Shown here piece after piece: positions 12,240 to 52,545 of a stretch of DNA of 52,545 nt (positions are counted from its first letter, which is position 1; every line of letters begins with the position of its first letter). Both the position numbers and the translations under genes were made by a program. The stretch covers positions 653,997 to 706,541 of the forward strand of contig SWDG01000006.1 in NCBI GenBank assembly GCA_005116965.1. Direction: 5' to 3'. Under the pieces are notes generated by a model, which did not search any database, was not told where the DNA came from, and saw only the letters and a program-made list of their open reading frames with translations. Origin of the DNA: Nitrospira sp. (lineage in GTDB: Bacteria; Nitrospirota; Nitrospiria; Nitrospirales; Nitrospiraceae).

Positions 12240-14519
12240 CTACAGACGTCCGAATGTTCGTTCGAAGAACTCTTTGGTGAGTGTCATATGCTGCCCGATA
12301 TCCGTTTGTAGATGGCGTGCGCCGGCTTGCCAGTCATCGGTGGTATAGCCCACGCGGCGGGCGAGGAAGATGAATTCGTCGGAGTCGGTTGGGGGAAGGA
12401 CTCGATCTTTGGCGTTGCCACGGACCATGCGAAGGCCGTCAATGAGCATGCGGATAAAGAAGTAGGCCTTGCGGAGCGTCTCGCCGTCTTGTCTCGTGAC
12501 AAGGCCACAGTCGACGAGGGTCGCCAGCGCCTGCATGGTGTTGGGGGTGCGCAGGACAGGGAGTCGATGGCCGTGCATGATTTGGAGGTACTGCATGGCA
12601 TACTCGATATCGACGATACCGCCGGGGCTATGCTTCAAGTTGACGGTGCTGTGCTCCACCAGCTGCTTGAGTTGCTGTCGGCGCAACGCGAGGGCTTCGG
12701 GGATATTCCAGGGTTTTCCGCTATAGACGTAGTGATCGCGATGGGCTTCGACGCGCTTGCCAAGGGCCGCGTCGCCCGCCACATGACGCAGTTTGATCAA
12801 TGACTGGCGCTCGAATGGCGCGGCCAGGCCATGCTCATTGTAATAGTTGGTGATCTCATCAAAGGGATTGGTCAGCGAGCCTTTTCCGCCGTGGGGACGG
12901 AGACGCACGTCGAGATGAAAGATGCCTTCCTGTTTGGCCTCGATCCATTGTAAGAGTTCCGCCCCCAGCCGCTCAAAGTATTCGCTGTTGTCGATCGGCT
13001 GCTTGCCCCCGGTGCGACCGGCGTCCCCATACACGAACATCACTTCAATATCAGAGGCGTAGCCGAGTTCCTTACCACCGAACTTGCCCAAGCCCAGCAC
13101 AGTGAAGGGACAGGGCTTTTTATTGGCCAAGCGTGGTGGGCCATGCACCTTATTCAGCTTGGCGTGGCAATCCTTCAAACTCCGATCGAGGATGACTTCG
13201 GCCAGCTGAGTCAACGCAGCCGAAAAATCAGGCAGTGCTGTGTCTGACTCGACGATGTGCTTCATATCGATGCGGAACAGTTCACGGTCCTTGAAGCTGT
13301 TCAGCGCGGCCTTCCGGGCCTCGTCGGTTTTGGCTTTATTCACCAGGCGATCGAGTTCCTTACGAAGCGTCGCTTTGGGAGTCATGAGGGGCGCATCGCG
13401 ATAATCTTGGAGAAGCGGTAGTAGGTTACTGTGTTGGCGGCGCAGAAAGTCTTCCCAGAGAAAATCGCTGGCCCCGAGCAGACGGGCGAGCAGGGGAAAG
13501 GTCTTCTTATCGCTGAGAAAGGCCAAGGCTTCTTGCTGGGCTTTCCCTTTCGTTTGCTGCATCGTGAGGTCAAGAAACTGGTCAAAGGCCTCTAAGGCTT
13601 TGGTCGGGTCAGGGGCCCAAGTCAGGGCATGGGTGAATTGCTTGATGAGCACGGCCGTCAGGCGCAGCTGCTGCTGATCGGTTGCATCGGTCAGCTTCTG
13701 GCCATGGCGGTTGCGGACAGAGAAGCGATCGTGAATCTTCCCCTCCTCGACGTCGAACTGTGCTTTGGAAATGTACACGTTGCGCATGGCCAGGGCGTTG
13801 GCGAAGGCGTACAAAAAGGCCGGGGTATCGTCCGACCGGATATCCATGACCGTGTCGGTGGGAGATTGGTTGTTGTCGAATGTGATCTGGACTGGATGGA
13901 GGAGACCGCTGAAAGACCCGCGGCGCTTGCCGAGCTGTTCGACCAGCCGTCGATTCACTGCACAGCGGGCCTCTGTAAATTGCCCTTTATCGAGCAATGT
14001 GATCACTGAGTGGAGCGCATCCGTGAGGTGTTTCTGTTGGATGTCGCCCAATTCCACTCCTGGTACCGGCAGCACGCGGAACACATCGACGATTTTTTTT
14101 CTGGTCAGCCCTGGACTGCTCGTGGCGCGGACGCGTGGTCCGTATCCTGCCCAACTTGTGCGAGCGGGCGGCGCAGCCGCTTGTTCGCCAAACGTATAGA
14201 TATCTCCTTCTTCGATGTTCAGGCCAAACGCAGAGAGCAGGCCGCAAATCGTGGCGAATTCAGAGAAGTAATCAAAGGCTACGATCGTGACCTCAAACCG
14301 TGTGTCCTGTTGCTCGGCAAAGGCAATTGCGCAGGGGCGTTCCGGGGTGAGCTGAGCCGTCGAGCGGATATGAGCGGCAATCGCCGGCGGTTCGAATCTC
14401 CGGAAATATTCTGGGTCCATGCGGCTGAAAAAATCATCAAGGATTTCAGGTGCAACATCAGGACACAGGGGACGAACTGTGCTGAGCAACGCGGTACGAT
14501 CGGGAGCGCCAGTGGACAT
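12240..14519 (-). CDS. ACT-ACT-GlnE type nucleotidyltransferase (AT-like)
   Basis: A 759-residue protein. Residues about 75-112 look like an ACT domain (FEVTIVAFDYFSEFATICGL) and 221-276 are a clear ACT domain of GlnD type (TDTVMDIRSDDTPAFLYAFA, then YISKAQFDVEEGKIHDRF). Residues about 470-755 are a GlnE nucleotidyltransferase half: VLGLGKFGGKELGYASDIEV at 474-493, FHLDVRLRPHG, and the helical GGIVDIEYAMQYLQ region. The motif resembles the adenylyl-transferase (C-terminal) half of E. coli GlnE. The usual Asp-x-Asp pair is Asp490-x-Glu492 here. By family knowledge it would modify glutamine synthetase Tyr397; the ACT domains suggest direct amino-acid sensing. It is divergent from the AR-like GlnE gene, 64 bases apart. 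Confidence 0.8.
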   Translation of the reverse strand: MSTGAPDRTALLSTVRPLCPDVAPEILDDFFSRMDPEYFRRFEPPAIAAHIRSTAQLTPERPCAIAFAEQQDTRFEVTIVAFDYFSEFATICGLLSAFGLNIEEGDIYTFGEQAAAPPARTSWAGYGPRVRATSSPGLTRKKIVDVFRVLPVPGVELGDIQQKHLTDALHSVITLLDKGQFTEARCAVNRRLVEQLGKRRGSFSGLLHPVQITFDNNQSPTDTVMDIRSDDTPAFLYAFANALAMRNVYISKAQFDVEEGKIHDRFSVRNRHGQKLTDATDQQQLRLTAVLIKQFTHALTWAPDPTKALEAFDQFLDLTMQQTKGKAQQEALAFLSDKKTFPLLARLLGASDFLWEDFLRRQHSNLLPLLQDYRDAPLMTPKATLRKELDRLVNKAKTDEARKAALNSFKDRELFRIDMKHIVESDTALPDFSAALTQLAEVILDRSLKDCHAKLNKVHGPPRLANKKPCPFTVLGLGKFGGKELGYASDIEVMFVYGDAGRTGGKQPIDNSEYFERLGAELLQWIEAKQEGIFHLDVRLRPHGGKGSLTNPFDEITNYYNEHGLAAPFERQSLIKLRHVAGDAALGKRVEAHRDHYVYSGKPWNIPEALALRRQQLKQLVEHSTVNLKHSPGGIVDIEYAMQYLQIMHGHRLPVLRTPNTMQALATLVDCGLVTRQDGETLRKAYFFIRMLIDGLRMVRGNAKDRVLPPTDSDEFIFLARRVGYTTDDWQAGARHLQTDIGQHMTLTKEFFERTFGRL

Positions 14520-14583: not shown

Positions 14584-16308
14584 ATGCCTCGAAGAACTCC
14601 CACACCCCACTCGTCGCGTTTGCCCTCGTTGACTGAAGGTCGTCCCGATAAGCCGGATCCCACGTCGATCCTGCTGGGGGAGAAGCAAAATGCTGAGGGG
14701 ATTCGGGGGATTTTGTCCGCCTATGGCCTGCGTGATCTCGATCAAGCGGACCGTAATCTCGATGCCATGGCCGGTGACCCGATCCAACGTCGGCAGCTGG
14801 CCGACATCCTGCCAATGTTGATGGACTCGATTGCCCGAACGGCCGATCCCGACCAGGCGTTGAACCACTGGGAGCGTATGTTGACGAGCGTATCCCGAAC
14901 CTCATTTCTCGACTACTTGCGCACGTCGCCGCGCATGCTCGATCTTCTCTGTGTGATCTTCGGCAACAGCGATGCCTTGACCTTTACGCTCATTCGAGAC
15001 CCGACCGTGGTGTACTGGCTGGCTGAGGAGGATGTCCTCGCCCGACCTCCGACGCGAAAGGGGATGGAGCGTGCGCTGTACGGCAGTATCGGGCATCTCA
15101 CCTCCAAAGAATCGAAGCTGGATGCGCTGCGTCGGTTCCAGCGGCGAGAAATGTTACGGATCGGTGTGCGGGATCTCCTTCGCCTCTCGACGGTGCCGGA
15201 GACAACCGGCTCGTTGTCGGATTTGGCCTGCCTCCTTATTCATGCGGCCTACGAGGTTGTCGACGCCGATCTCCGACAGCAATATGGCATTCCCATGCAT
15301 CAGAATCGGCAGCGACGGTGGGTGGAGACCAAGTTTACGGTCATCGGGATGGGTAAGCTTGGCGGACATGAGTTGAATTACAGCTCCGATGTAGATCTGA
15401 TCTATCTCTATGAGTCCCACGATGGAGAGACGAGAGCGCCAAGAGGGAGGCGTGCCGTGATCCCAGCCGGCGTCGGCATTTCCAATGAAGAATATTTTGA
15501 GATTCTCGCCCGTGAGCTCACCAGGGTGTTGGTCGAACCCACCAGAGAAGGCTACGTCTTTCGAGTCGATCTGCGGTTGCGGGCCGAGGGTTCTGTTGGC
15601 CAGTTGGCTCGTTCGCTCGTCGAGTATCGGAAATATTATGCGACACGCGGACAGGTCTGGGAGCGGTTGGCGTTGCTCAAAGCGTGGCCAGTCGCCGGTT
15701 CCCATGATGTCGGGCAGGCGTTTCTGAAGTCGGTGAAGTCGTTTGTCTTGGGGACCGGGGGGGGAATGGATCGCGACAAGGCGTTGACGATCGTGCAAGA
15801 CGTCCGCGCCGTCAAGGACATGATCGATGCCAAAATGATGGACCGTGGCCACGCACAGCGCAACGTCAAGCTGGGGACCGGCGGGATTCGAGAGATCGAG
15901 TTTTTCGTGCAGACCGTTCAAGTCCTGGCCGGACGAACGGTGCCGGCGCTTCTGGATCGGAGCACGCTCGGTTCACTGAGCCGGCTGGCCAAGAAAAAAC
16001 TGCTCTCGACCGAAGACCGCGATGCGCTGACTGCCGCGTATCTCTTCTTACGCGATGTTGAGCATAAGTTGCAGATGGTCGATGATCTCCAGACCCATGC
16101 GCTGCCCGAACGCTCGGAAGAGTTGGAGCGCTGTGCGGTCCGGATGGGGTACGGTGCACAGGATCGGATGAAGGCAGCCAAATTGTTTCATGTCGATCAT
16201 CAGCGCCATACCGAGATGGTCCATCGTACCTTCAGGTCGTTTTTTGTCGAGCCAATGACATCGCTTGTTTTTAAAGCCACGCTCCGTTCAATCAGCAGTT
16301 CGAAGTAG
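14584..16308 (+). CDS. glnE: Single-domain GlnE (AR-like half)
   Basis: A 574-residue protein, against about 950 for two-domain GlnE. Residues about 100-245 form the helical lead-in (FLDYLRTSPRMLDLLCVIFG), 251-276 the nucleotidyltransferase core (FTVIGMGKLGGHELNYSSDV with Asp269 and Asp271), then VFRVDLRLRAEG, and 450-560 the helical bundle (GTGGIREIEFFVQTVQVL, DALTAAYLFLRDVEHKLQM). Overall it matches the N-terminal, adenylyl-removing half of E. coli GlnE, and it ends where a second half would begin. The AT-like half is a separate divergent gene (12240-14519). Start: the only early ATG; no ribosome site is visible, consistent with a leaderless message. A diverged copy of codons at 16020-16166 occurs at 17239-17385. 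Confidence 0.85.
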   Translation: MPRRTPTPHSSRLPSLTEGRPDKPDPTSILLGEKQNAEGIRGILSAYGLRDLDQADRNLDAMAGDPIQRRQLADILPMLMDSIARTADPDQALNHWERMLTSVSRTSFLDYLRTSPRMLDLLCVIFGNSDALTFTLIRDPTVVYWLAEEDVLARPPTRKGMERALYGSIGHLTSKESKLDALRRFQRREMLRIGVRDLLRLSTVPETTGSLSDLACLLIHAAYEVVDADLRQQYGIPMHQNRQRRWVETKFTVIGMGKLGGHELNYSSDVDLIYLYESHDGETRAPRGRRAVIPAGVGISNEEYFEILARELTRVLVEPTREGYVFRVDLRLRAEGSVGQLARSLVEYRKYYATRGQVWERLALLKAWPVAGSHDVGQAFLKSVKSFVLGTGGGMDRDKALTIVQDVRAVKDMIDAKMMDRGHAQRNVKLGTGGIREIEFFVQTVQVLAGRTVPALLDRSTLGSLSRLAKKKLLSTEDRDALTAAYLFLRDVEHKLQMVDDLQTHALPERSEELERCAVRMGYGAQDRMKAAKLFHVDHQRHTEMVHRTFRSFFVEPMTSLVFKATLRSISSSK

Positions 16309-46021: not shown

Positions 46022-47305
46022 TTAGGCGCGGGCAAGTTTGGTTGCCCTTCGCAATTGCCCTACCGGCAAGGATCTCGCGGCCACATGACCTGTGGTATCC
46101 CCCTCCACCGAACGAATCTCGTAGAGCCGCTCGGTGGTGAGCATCTTGTAGAGGATGCGGCACAAGTGCCGACCGAGTGCACGAATGGCTTGATTGTGCG
46201 ACTTGCCTTGCTGGCGTTTCTTTTCATAGTAGCGTTGCGATTCCGGGATCTGCTTGCGATGCCGATCCACGGCGATCATCATGGCGGCCTTCGCGCGGAC
46301 GTTGACCTGTTTCGGCGGCTTGGAGCTGTGGCGTGTGCCAGAACTGTTGTCCAAGGTGGCCATGCCGAGATACAACGCTAGACTGCTTTCCTGCTGGAAG
46401 CGTGTCACCGTCCCGATCTCCCCCGCGAGCTCGGCGGTGCAGATCGGGCCAAATCCCGGGAGCGAGGCGACCGTCGTGGCGATCGTGGACTCCTGCGCGA
46501 CCTGATGCATCGTCGTCTCCAAGGCCGCGATCTGTGCATCGAGGTCCAGCACCCGCTGGGCATCCTCCTGGATCATGGCCCCGACCCACTCCACCTCCGG
46601 ACTCCACTGGGCCTGTGGCTGCCAGTCCTGAATGATGCGCGCATACGCTCGCCCCACACAGGGGATGTTCAAGAGGGTCGTTTTGCGAAGGCGCGTCAGT
46701 TGCGGAAGCGTGTCCGCACTGACCAACAAGTGCAGGAACCACTGGTTGCCGACTTCCCGCGTGAGATCGAGCAATCCTGGACAGACTGCCTGGAGATCGG
46801 CTTGGAGCGTATTCAAGACCCGAACTCGCTCGTTCACCAGCCGCCGGCGCCGTCGTGTCAGCCGCTTCAAGTGCGCATTCGCCGCCGGCACTACGCCAAC
46901 TTCCTGTAACACGGCTTTGGCTACCGGAAGATGCTCCCGCAGTTGAAACAACTCAAGCCTCTTGCGCGCATCCAGCCGATCGGTCTTGGCGGCCCCCGGA
47001 AAGATCTCTTTGAACCGGGCCAACTTGAGATTATTGATATTGTAGAGCCGATACCCGCGTGCCTGAATCAGCTGATCCAACGGTCGCGCATACCCATTAT
47101 AGCCTTCCATCGCGACAGCGACTGGCCCTGGGTAGTGTTGGTGATAGGTCTCGATGCGGGCGAAGAAGTGGGCAAAGCCTTCTGGGTGATGCGTGATTGC
47201 AAATTCTTCCAGCACGTCACCACTCGACAGCCCGATGGCGACATGGTGTCGTCGGGCACCCACATCTACACTAACTCGCAGTTCGACGGTTGATGTTGTG
47301 GCCAC
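46022..47305 (-). mobile_element. IS110-family transposase
   Basis: A 427-residue recombinase from a GTG at 47305 with GGAGG five bases upstream. N-terminal RuvC-like DEDD domain: Asp14 (VSVDVG), Glu67 (AMEGYN), Asp109 and Asp112 (KTDRLDARKR). The C-terminal Tnp20 domain (LPGFGPICTAELAGEIG, then LGMATLDNSSGTRHSSKPPKQ) contains the family serine. IS110 elements use a guide RNA made from their own non-coding end and leave no target duplication. The element's exact ends were not determined. Intact and probably active. Confidence 0.93.
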
Positions 47306-48302: not shown

Positions 48303-49091
48303 ATGCCTAAACAGATCGTGACAGGGTGGCGAGCCATGATGAAGATGACCCTGGCGGCCTTGGTCTTGTGTGCCGCCTTGCTCTCTTCGCCGGCCTTCGG
48401 GCAGTCCACGGCCCCAACGACCGATCCCCCCTGGCGGCAATCGGTCGAACAAGTGATCGAGTCGTACATTCGGTCACATCCCGAGATGATTGAGCAGACG
48501 CTTCAGGCGTTGGCGGCAAAACGTCAAGAAAAAGAGCAAGCGAGCGTGAAGCAGGCGATCGTCGCACATCAGAGCGAATTGCTGCACGATCCCGCATCGC
48601 CGGTGAGCGGCGATCTGGCCGGAGATGTCACAGTGATCGAGTTCTTCGATTATCGATGCGGATTCTGCAAACGAGCCGCCGGTTCCGTCACGCAATTGCA
48701 GAAGGACGACGCGCGGGTGCGCATTGTTTATAAGGACTTCCCTATCTTAGGGGATGCCTCCGTACAAGTGGCGAAAGCGGCGTTAGCGTCCCGGACGCAA
48801 GGCCGTCATCAAGCGTTTCATGAAGCCCTCCTCGCGGCGAAAGGCGATCTGTCGAAGGAGCATGTGCTTCAGATCGCGAGCGACGTGGGCTTGGATGCCA
48901 AAAGACTGGAGGTGGACATGGAGGAACCTGAATGGCTCACGATCATTGAACGTAACCGGGAACTGGCCAATGATTTGCGCGTCACGGGCACCCCGGCATT
49001 CGTGGTGGGCAACGAGGTAGTGCCCGGTGCGGTGGACCTGCCGGCACTCAAGGCTCTCGTCGCACGAGCCCGCACGCGAGCACCACACTGA
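48303..49091 (+). CDS. DsbA-family thiol:disulfide oxidoreductase
   Basis: From the ATG at 48303 (AAGGAG upstream), 262 residues. Signal peptide ends near SPAFGQS. A helical N-terminal region (VEQVIESYIRSHPEMIEQTL) precedes a DsbA-like thioredoxin domain: Cys119-Gly-Phe-Cys122 in DYRCGFCKR and the cis-Pro loop TGTPAFVVG. Periplasmic; Com1/DsbA-type enzymes make or isomerise disulfides. The neighbour (49279-50454) encodes a secreted protein with 32 repeat cysteines, a plausible substrate. An in-frame start far upstream (48045) is not believed. Confidence 0.85.
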   Translation: MPKQIVTGWRAMMKMTLAALVLCAALLSSPAFGQSTAPTTDPPWRQSVEQVIESYIRSHPEMIEQTLQALAAKRQEKEQASVKQAIVAHQSELLHDPASPVSGDLAGDVTVIEFFDYRCGFCKRAAGSVTQLQKDDARVRIVYKDFPILGDASVQVAKAALASRTQGRHQAFHEALLAAKGDLSKEHVLQIASDVGLDAKRLEVDMEEPEWLTIIERNRELANDLRVTGTPAFVVGNEVVPGAVDLPALKALVARARTRAPH

Positions 49092-49278: not shown

Positions 49279-50454
49279 ATGTTTGTTCGCAGACTGATCA
49301 TCATTGTTCTTAGTGCTTTCTCCGTTGGTTGTTTTGCAGCGCCGGCCTTGGCCTATTCCGTCAAGAAGTGCGATCAGATCGCGGAGAACGATATCAGTGT
49401 GGCTGCCGACTACATCGATCGACGAACTCGACAGATCGCCGACGAATTTACGCATATCAGCAAGGATAATCGCGATGAATTCGTTCGGAAATGGCCGCGC
49501 ATCAATATAGTTTGCCAGGACGAGGGGCCGAAAGGAAAGTCACGCGAATGCCTGAATGAGCAAGGCCTCGGCGGTCAGGCCCATGGTGGGCTGGGGAATC
49601 GGGTTAACGTCTGTTACTACAATCGGGTCGATCGTGGAGAGACACTCTGCGGTCTAGTCGGTATTATCGTCCATGAGGCTGGGCATGCGAACGGGTTCCC
49701 GATACTTGAGAACCACAACAATCCAGATAGCTACGTCAGGAGCAACGATCCCGTCTATGTGATGGGGGATCGGGCAGCGGCGTTCTGCAAAACAGACACA
49801 ACTTTTATTAAGGATGTGCCGCTCATCGGGCGCAGCGAACTCGCGCTTGGTGCCGCTTGTCGTGCCGACGACCAATGCGGAAGTGGTCGCTGCCTTGGCG
49901 GCACCTGCCAATGCGACCAAGACGGGGACTGCCCAACGGGCGAACGTTGCTTCAAACCGGCGGTCGGGAGAAATTTCTGCTCCAGGACCGACCTGGCGAT
50001 CGGCGCTGCGTGCGCTCGCGATGCTGAGTGTCGCTCGGATCATTGCGAGGGTGGCCAATGCGTCTGCCGCCGTGACGGCGATTGTCCATCGGGTCAAGTC
50101 TGCCGCACACCGATCATGGGGCAGAATCGCTGCGAGACGGGCACAGATGGCACCCTGGCGATCGGCGCCGTCTGCCAGAACAACAATCAGTGCAAGTCCA
50201 CCCAATGTGAAGGAGATAGGTGCGTGTGCCGGAGCGACAGCGACTGCCCCACCGGGCAGAGCTGCTACACCCCGATAACCGGGCAAAATTTTTGCCAAAG
50301 CACGACCTTGGGGCTCGGGGCTGCCTGCAACCGCGACAGCCAGTGCCGCTCCGACAAGTGCCAGGGTGGCGCATGCCGCTGCAATAAGGATAGCGATTGT
50401 TCGGGTGACCAAAAATGTAAGAAACCACTGATCGGAAACAATCACTGCGAGTAA
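49279..50454 (+). CDS. Secreted HEAGH-motif protein with four eight-cysteine repeats
   Basis: A 391-residue protein with a signal peptide (residues 1-25, ending PALAYS). Residues 30-175 form a domain with HEAGH (His132-His136), the zincin metal-binding motif, suggesting a metallopeptidase; the third ligand is not clear. Residues about 188-391 hold four tandem repeats of about 50 residues, each with eight cysteines and the plan LAIGAxC, QCxSxxC, GxxCxC, DxDCPTGQxC, PxxGxNxC. This resembles dickkopf/EGF-like cysteine-rich repeats of eukaryotic secreted proteins. AAAGGAGA precedes the ATG. An attC site follows its 3' end, so the gene may be an integron cassette. Confidence 0.8.
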   Translation: MFVRRLIIIVLSAFSVGCFAAPALAYSVKKCDQIAENDISVAADYIDRRTRQIADEFTHISKDNRDEFVRKWPRINIVCQDEGPKGKSRECLNEQGLGGQAHGGLGNRVNVCYYNRVDRGETLCGLVGIIVHEAGHANGFPILENHNNPDSYVRSNDPVYVMGDRAAAFCKTDTTFIKDVPLIGRSELALGAACRADDQCGSGRCLGGTCQCDQDGDCPTGERCFKPAVGRNFCSRTDLAIGAACARDAECRSDHCEGGQCVCRRDGDCPSGQVCRTPIMGQNRCETGTDGTLAIGAVCQNNNQCKSTQCEGDRCVCRSDSDCPTGQSCYTPITGQNFCQSTTLGLGAACNRDSQCRSDKCQGGACRCNKDSDCSGDQKCKKPLIGNNHCE

Positions 50455-50510: not shown

Positions 50511-50577
50511 GCTTAACCAGGCGCTTGAGAGGGACGCCGCAAGAAAGCGCGGCGCCCCTCAGCTTGGTTCGTTAGGC
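50511..50577 (+). other. Integron attC recombination site
   Basis: A 67-bp site with R'' box GCTTAAC (50511-50517, RYYYAAC) and R' box GTTAGGC (50571-50577, GTTRRRY). Between them, GGGACGCCGC (50531-50540) pairs with GCGGCGCCCC (50549-50558), and GCTTGAGAGGG pairs with CCCCTCAGCTTGG around extra-helical bases, the classical attC fold. It sits 57 bases after a gene stop, as cassette attC sites do. No integrase or second attC is seen here. Confidence 0.75.
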
Positions 50578-50614: not shown

Positions 50615-52545
50615 ATGAGTGCACAAATGATTGTCCGCTTACGGTCGATACGGCGTCACGCAGGCATTACAGTGCTGATGGCTTATGCAATATTTGTAGT
50701 GAGCGCGTGTACCACCCCGGCCGTGACTGTGACTGTGAATCCGGACGGAACCTTCTCACCGAATCCGGTCAACATTCAGGCAGGGGAGAGAATACAGTGG
50801 GTGGGCCTGACCAGGAGAGATTCAATTGTCCAGATCGGCGACGTAAGCCGATTCCCCACCTCTGATTCATGCGGGATCAATGACAATGATCTAGACCACC
50901 CATTCGCTGCGACCGATCCCAACGAGTTTACCAGACCAACCCGCAAAGGGGTGTCGGGAATCTTCGCGCTGGGTCCAAATGAACCGGGCTTCGTCCAACG
51001 ACTGGCTACTGAGACATGCACGTGCGAGACCCTGGATGAGCCGTGTGTTCCCTTGCAGGTCAACTCGTTGGATGGAAATGCGTACAAACTCTGCCCAAAC
51101 GAGGGAGCAATCCTCGGGACACTCGACACCACTTGGACCAATCCGGACATCACTGGTGTCACCATCCGTATAAACTGGAGCGATATTCAGATCGATAACC
51201 AGGGCATAATCGAATTCAATTGGGACGATCTCGACAAAGAGATGAATAAGGCAGTTGCCAACGGCAAGCTCTTTACTCTGGACGTGCGGGCAGGAAAGGC
51301 CGGCACACCAAGATGGATTTTCAACAACTATGCCGGCCCTGCTGGTTCCGGTCGGGTAACGCCGCTCACCTTTAAGGACTTCGGCAGTGACGGATCACCG
51401 CCGCCCCATTGCGGATTCGACCTTACCATAGGCTCGCCCACGCACGCCAACTACCGAAATCTCTACGTCGCAATGATCAATGAACTGGCGACCCACGTCG
51501 CGAGCGACTCACGCTGGTTTCAGGCCTTGGCTCACGTGAAGATCTCAGGCTCCAATTTTCTTTCCTCTGAAGCGCGACTGCCAAAGAGATGTTTTGACGG
51601 GAACGGCGATGGCATCCTCGACACCGTCGGGCAGGATGAATGTTTGTGTAATTCGAAAACCTGGGCTGACGCCGGCTACACGCCCGCCGGACTTTACGAA
51701 TACTACCGGGTCGTGGGAAATACGATCTACAATGCCTTCTTCCAGAGGAAGTCGATGGGCTACCAATTAATTCAAGACGGGTTTCCCAAGGTTGAGAGCC
51801 CAACCAACTTCGAAGGAGATTCTCTGCAGGATCAGCGGGGCAATAACCTGCTCGAACCGCCCGGAGTGACCTCGGATGATCTTGGACGGACCATACAGAC
51901 CGAGACGATTCTCCGAGAGGGACGAGAAGGGCGTTTCATTGACCCCTTCGGAGCTCTAAATGATCTCGCGGCGGGAAAGCTTTTCGTACCCCAACATAGC
52001 GGTATCCATCGTTTGCCCGAGGATGACGATCCCGTGAACGGCAACTGCACGCAGTCTGTGGCGGTGTCTGCTGGGACCCAACAGGCAATCTTTCCAATCC
52101 CACTTGGCACCAACGGCGATGGAGCGCCAGGCTGTCCCAACAGATGGGCTGTAAACGAAGGAACGCTCTTCTCGCAGATCATGGGATTCCAAACTGACAA
52201 CCCTGAGGGGATCACATCATCGGCAGACGTCGAGTCGGCCCTCTGGAATCTGACCATCAACTCCAATGGAGTCTTTATCGAGCTGTATGAGCAGCGCCTG
52301 TGGGAGATCTATCATTCCCTCGGTACCGGCGCAGCGGCTGCTGTGCTTGATCCCACTCGAACGGGCCTGCCAGCGGGCCACCCGGCGCGTTTCTCGAAAA
52401 ACCTTCTCACCTGGTCAGAGGAACTCCACGACAGGAGGAAAACTTTGGTGGATCCGACCAGTCCCCACCTTGGCGACCCTTTCCCGGCGTTCTATACTCA
52501 CACGTTTTCAAAGGCGATCGCCGCACCAGTGACCTACTATTACAT
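50615..52545 (+). CDS. Large lipoprotein, cut by window end
   Basis: Starts with ATG at 50615 (AAGGAGG upstream) and is open to the window end (643 codons, no stop). N terminus has a hydrophobic stretch ending V-S-A-C (Cys32), a lipobox. Residues about 38-110 look cupredoxin-like (FSPNPVNIQAGERIQWVGL, RKGVSGIFALG). Later text (WFQALAHVKISGSNFLS, GYTPAGLYEYYRVVGNTIYN, MGYQLIQDGFPKVE) reminds me of TIM-barrel glycosidase-like proteins, but this is a weak impression. It may be the cassette or gene after the attC site. Confidence 0.6.
   Translation, partial: MSAQMIVRLRSIRRHAGITVLMAYAIFVVSACTTPAVTVTVNPDGTFSPNPVNIQAGERIQWVGLTRRDSIVQIGDVSRFPTSDSCGINDNDLDHPFAATDPNEFTRPTRKGVSGIFALGPNEPGFVQRLATETCTCETLDEPCVPLQVNSLDGNAYKLCPNEGAILGTLDTTWTNPDITGVTIRINWSDIQIDNQGIIEFNWDDLDKEMNKAVANGKLFTLDVRAGKAGTPRWIFNNYAGPAGSGRVTPLTFKDFGSDGSPPPHCGFDLTIGSPTHANYRNLYVAMINELATHVASDSRWFQALAHVKISGSNFLSSEARLPKRCFDGNGDGILDTVGQDECLCNSKTWADAGYTPAGLYEYYRVVGNTIYNAFFQRKSMGYQLIQDGFPKVESPTNFEGDSLQDQRGNNLLEPPGVTSDDLGRTIQTETILREGREGRFIDPFGALNDLAAGKLFVPQHSGIHRLPEDDDPVNGNCTQSVAVSAGTQQAIFPIPLGTNGDGAPGCPNRWAVNEGTLFSQIMGFQTDNPEGITSSADVESALWNLTINSNGVFIELYEQRLWEIYHSLGTGAAAAVLDPTRTGLPAGHPARFSKNLLTWSEELHDRRKTLVDPTSPHLGDPFPAFYTHTFSKAIAAPVTYYY

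Follow-up and report, generated by a model that had tools for sequence, protein, structure and literature searches.

A solitary attC site shared by three related genomes, probably left by an old cassette outside any integron

An integron recombination site without an integrase beside it may be what remains of an integron, or it may mark a cassette that was placed outside one. This question is raised by a 67-bp segment at 50511–50577 (+ strand) near the right end of the window, by which we mean the whole 52,545-nt stretch of Nitrospira sp. DNA that was analysed. The segment is very likely an attC site. It starts with an R'' box, GCTTAAC (50511–50517), and ends with an R' box, GTTAGGC (50571–50577), in agreement with the RYYYAAC ... 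GTTRRRY rule, and the two boxes are complementary at 6 of 7 positions, the remaining one being a mismatch (T.G on the top strand, A.C on the bottom strand). Since the same position was unpaired in 46 of 137 scored sites, this mismatch is ordinary. Between these boxes, the L'' arm GCTTGAGAGGGACGCCGC (50523–50540; box GCTTGAG) and the L' arm GCGGCGCCCCTCAGC (50549–50563; box CTCAGC) form a perfect 15-bp stem once one T (50525 or 50526), A50530 and A50534 are looped out, all three from the 5′ arm, and folding places the terminal loop AAGAAAGC at 50541–50548. The whole site thus reads GCTTAAC-CAGGC-GCTTGAG-A-GGG-A-CGCCGC-AAGAAAGC-GCGGCGCCCCTCAGC-TTGGTTC-GTTAGGC, with a 5-nt spacer (CAGGC) separating R'' from L'' and a 7-nt spacer (TTGGTTC) separating L' from R'. 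Folding was better than that of shuffled sequences on both strands (z = -3.9 for the top and -3.1 for the bottom strand).

The box order R''/L''/L'/R', the GTT core, the unpaired spacers and the extrahelical bases confined to the L'' side are all shared with attC sites of integron cassettes, in which such one-sided extrahelical bases are the source of polarity. Crossover is presumably at G|TT of the R' box, after 50571. The same L'' arm occurs in an intI-linked attC of Rhodocyclaceae (L069:112–183), the L''/L' pair of which is nearly identical to that of the window site. Compared with canonical and chromosomal attC sites, the window site differs in the A.C mismatch of R''/R', in an L'-R' spacer about two bases above the usual length, and in having no integron around it.

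Covariance models were built for this analysis to stand in for that of IntegronFinder, with seeds taken from attC sites that belong either to class 1 integrons or to integrase-adjacent arrays of various bacteria. With model R1 (23 seed sequences, window site excluded), the site scored 45.1 bits (E = 6.1e-9 in the window and 4e-7 genome-wide), and the runner-up in the window had 10.8 bits. Because the L boxes of L069 were almost identical to those of the window site, L069 and two similar seeds were dropped for model R3, which, with seeds of this box type removed, gave 34.1 bits (E = 4e-6). A decoy model (R2), in which the same seeds were written backwards with composition and pairing preserved, returned zero matches in the window and in 175 genomes of the family. 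Paired positions covaried strongly across 139 R1 sites in an alignment fitted to the model. Searching the window against Rfam at gathering thresholds gave no match, a search of plasmid records for relatives of the site gave chance matches only, and the site was not repeated elsewhere in the source genome. The attC identity and the box rules put forward in the original prediction were borne out.

With R1, the site had no attC neighbour in a range from about 18 kb upstream to 37 kb downstream, and no IntI fragments were detected in the window or in the 37 kb beyond. The prediction had rightly reported no integrase in the window, but its proposals of a cluster of attC sites or of a chromosomal integron extending beyond the window did not hold, as there was only one site over this range and neither a further attC nor an IntI fragment to the right. 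A low score together with a lack of any other attC or intI in the genome had been named as evidence that would speak against it; this combination was not seen, because the contig also carries an integron relic, 289 kb to the left of the site. A CALIN is made up of two or more attC sites lying a few kb apart at most, and a complete chromosomal integron has an intact intI and attI beside its array; the window locus has a single attC, and the only clear intI of the genome is a relic lacking 919 bp. With exactly one attC in the neighbourhood and no intact integrase nearby, the window site is by published usage a SALIN, the term for a single attC lacking an integron integrase (PMC12690207).

The flanking genes also agreed with what had been claimed. 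A Cys-rich secreted ORF of 391 aa (49279–50454, + strand) occupies the cassette position, ending 56 nt before the attC; its Pfam matches to EB and Dickkopf_N were both below cut-offs. It is preceded by a dsbA-like gene (48336–49091, + strand; Pfam DSBA, 6.8e-26). On the other side, a lipoprotein-like ORF without Pfam match starts 39 nt after the attC (50616–52545, + strand), continuing past the window end into a run of unknown bases. An IS110/IS116-family transposase gene (46022–47305, - strand) separates the attC region from the last conserved block of genes. It was also noticed that two divergent ORFs farther to the left (12240–14519, - strand, and 14584–16308, + strand) resemble parts of GlnE/GlnD-type nucleotidyltransferases by eye, possibly representing a split or duplicated gene.

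The relic on the same contig (G000:C6:414648–417062, corresponding to about 9649–12063 of L038) is the only clear integron of the genome. Relative to the intact intI of G108, its intI (IntI match at C6:414739–415032) has suffered a 919-bp internal deletion, with the start and the last quarter retained; the N-terminal domain falls inside the deletion, and the first catalytic arginine of this tyrosine recombinase was presumably lost as well. After the intI come, in order, a GTTAGAC core, a 220-aa ORF, an attC, ORFs of the GIY-YIG and DUF6884 kinds, and a weak match resembling attC (17 bits). The relic attC (C6:415888–415945), 0.85 kb from the intI, scored 61.7 bits and has TTTAGGC in place of GTTAGGC as its R' box. 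Other weak R1 matches (19–23 bits) on C6, C5 and C25, not significant alone, look like decayed sites. Because the sole clear intI is a deletion relic, the window attC, solitary as it likely is, presumably is immobile today.

Among the 175 family genomes, the lipoprotein gene was present in three, namely the source genome, G106 (83%) and G107 (80%), and all three had the order dsbA, gene, attC, lipoprotein gene, with the dsbA-like gene identified as left neighbour by synteny and without any sign of a second cassette at the locus. Beyond the source genome, the core hairpin type of the window site was found only at the same locus in G106 and G107 and as one match each in G085, G154 and G165. In G106 the gene preceding the attC is again the Cys-rich one (82%), whereas the same slot in G107 holds an unrelated PHB-esterase-like gene (PF00756/PF10503), its frame being interrupted in the G107 assembly. 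Weaker homologues of the Cys-rich gene occur elsewhere (G107 and G127), none of them accompanied by a convincing attC. The G106 site has kept its shape; its R' reads GCT, the GTT being lost, and R1 gave only 21 bits. One of its pairs, 50535–50554 in window numbering, has changed from C-G to T-A with pairing kept, and this is the sole compensated pair. In G107, the loop is unchanged, the outer boxes are altered and changes in the L' arm break canonical pairing, the site being unreported by R1. Both sites look like they are decaying. It appears that the attC was inherited at this locus and that the preceding gene was exchanged; since the G107 loop is the same while the gene differs, the swap was possibly made by an agent other than IntI.

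The window locus resembles SALINs and single-attC CALINs in having one attC beside a gene in cassette position with no integrase nearby, but differs from them in that its position is common to three species with differing upstream genes and that an intI relic lies elsewhere in the genome. IntegronFinder 2.0 found just two CALINs in the phylum to which Nitrospira belongs, and a CALIN with one attC is noted there as a possible true positive (PMC9024848). As a single cassette outside attI, the locus is also similar to cassettes inserted at attG sites, although neither the insertion event nor the target site is seen here. Such cassettes have at their start a left core, G|TTRRRY, matching R''; before the Cys-rich gene, the best candidate matched at 5 of 7 positions, the same as in random stretches. 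Because this core is unrecognisable, it is not possible to draw the limits of the original cassette. The motif CTAAGC, directly preceding the Cys-rich gene, was too short to be accepted as a left core. Nor did the comparison reveal an empty insertion site, the lipoprotein gene being confined to 3 of 175 genomes and both relatives already having the attC.

Cassette insertion at attG sites is attributed to Loot et al. (2024; doi 10.1038/s41564-023-01548-y) in papers citing that work. Activity of IntI at secondary sites has been documented (PMC10127599). We consider it probable that what remains here is the attC of one old cassette lying outside any integron, which IntI would have inserted at an attG-type site in an ancestor of at least three species of the genus. 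An integrase would have inserted a circular cassette, consisting of a gene and an attC folded from the bottom strand, between the dsbA-like and lipoprotein genes, its target being a non-attI site of the attG kind. The attC would then have been passed on with its neighbours, the gene before it being changed in one lineage. At present the cassette would be immobile unless an integrase was supplied in trans, for which the site may have remained competent. Insertion at an attG-type site is favoured over the remnant of a decayed array, but is unproven, since neither a left core nor an empty site was identified at this locus.

Such a remnant would be all that is left of a chromosomal cassette array after decay at its original place, the intI and other cassettes having been deleted or moved by rearrangement so that the attC now lies 289 kb from the relic. 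This agrees with the presence of the relic and of a few weak, decayed-looking attC matches (17–23 bits; C6, C5 and C25) in the genome, with short IntI fragments within about 1 kb of 3 of 20 family sites, and with the proposal that CALINs are degraded integrons (PMC9024848). The lack of IntI fragments in the window and in the following 37 kb, together with a gene order that is the same in three species and shows no trace of a second cassette, makes decay in place unlikely in our judgement. We find it more doubtful that a former attC now serves as an RNA element retained between the two co-directional genes, for example in transcription attenuation or mRNA protection. The hairpin does lie 39 nt before the lipoprotein start, the 50535–50554 pair is compensated in G106, and transcripts in arrays reportedly end at attC hairpins (PMC8876359); but this is a single compensated pair, no terminator pattern was found, and the broken L' pairing in G107 and the R' without GTT in G106 resemble decay. 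Hardly credible is a chance or ordinary palindrome, such as a terminator or a REP-like repeat, that merely resembles attC. The segment is GC-rich, intergenic and able to fold on both strands, but it has no T run or terminator call as an intrinsic terminator would, is not repeated in the genome, and scored 45.1 and 34.1 bits with models built without it, while the decoy matched in 0 of 175 genomes.

Solitary sites were not confined to this locus. At E ≤ 1e-3, R1 found attC sites in 117 of the 175 family genomes (decoy, 0 of 175), and intI was matched at E ≤ 1e-60 in 22. Counted from these two lists, 100 attC-positive genomes had no intI at this cut-off, which misses short relics such as that of the source genome, and many of the assemblies are incomplete. 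Twenty sites away from contig ends were fetched from the top of the list, and so do not form a random sample; 18 had no second site of at least 30 bits within 5 kb, and 16 had none of at least 20 bits. At most of them, a same-strand ORF ended within about 30 nt of R'', and an exact 7/7 left core preceded the gene in 8 of the 20, compared with 3.6% of random stretches (binomial P about 2e-7). Single and often complete cassettes are therefore common in this family. Solitary cassettes having both an exact left core and an attC were seen across the family, for example in L178, L180, L181, L187 and L195, several of the genomes being without a detectable intact intI.

It was also noticed that intI genes of the family are mostly transcribed toward the attC array, which lies on their 3′ side (L042, L044, L046, L049, L050, L051, L054 and L055, as well as the relic in L038), whereas L045, the second intI of G038, has the usual arrangement. 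An atypical arrangement with intI directed toward the array has been described in Treponema (PMC3607928), and an attC array on an Acidobacteria contig (L061:9307–12810, + strand) likewise lies on the 3′ side and the strand of intI.

We tentatively propose, at somewhat less than even confidence, that the usual form of the integron system in this family is not an array but scattered single cassettes, which IntI would have placed around the chromosome at attG-like sites and which stayed when the integrase was lost. The site studied here would then be an old case, its gene slot having been refilled by an unrelated gene in one lineage. The locus common to three species indicates that an attC can outlive the gene with which it arrived. 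How often the cassette insertion outside integrons reported from the laboratory leaves lasting marks in nature has so far been less clear, and a family with attC in two thirds of its genomes, mostly single in the sample and often integrase-free, is a natural data set for this question.
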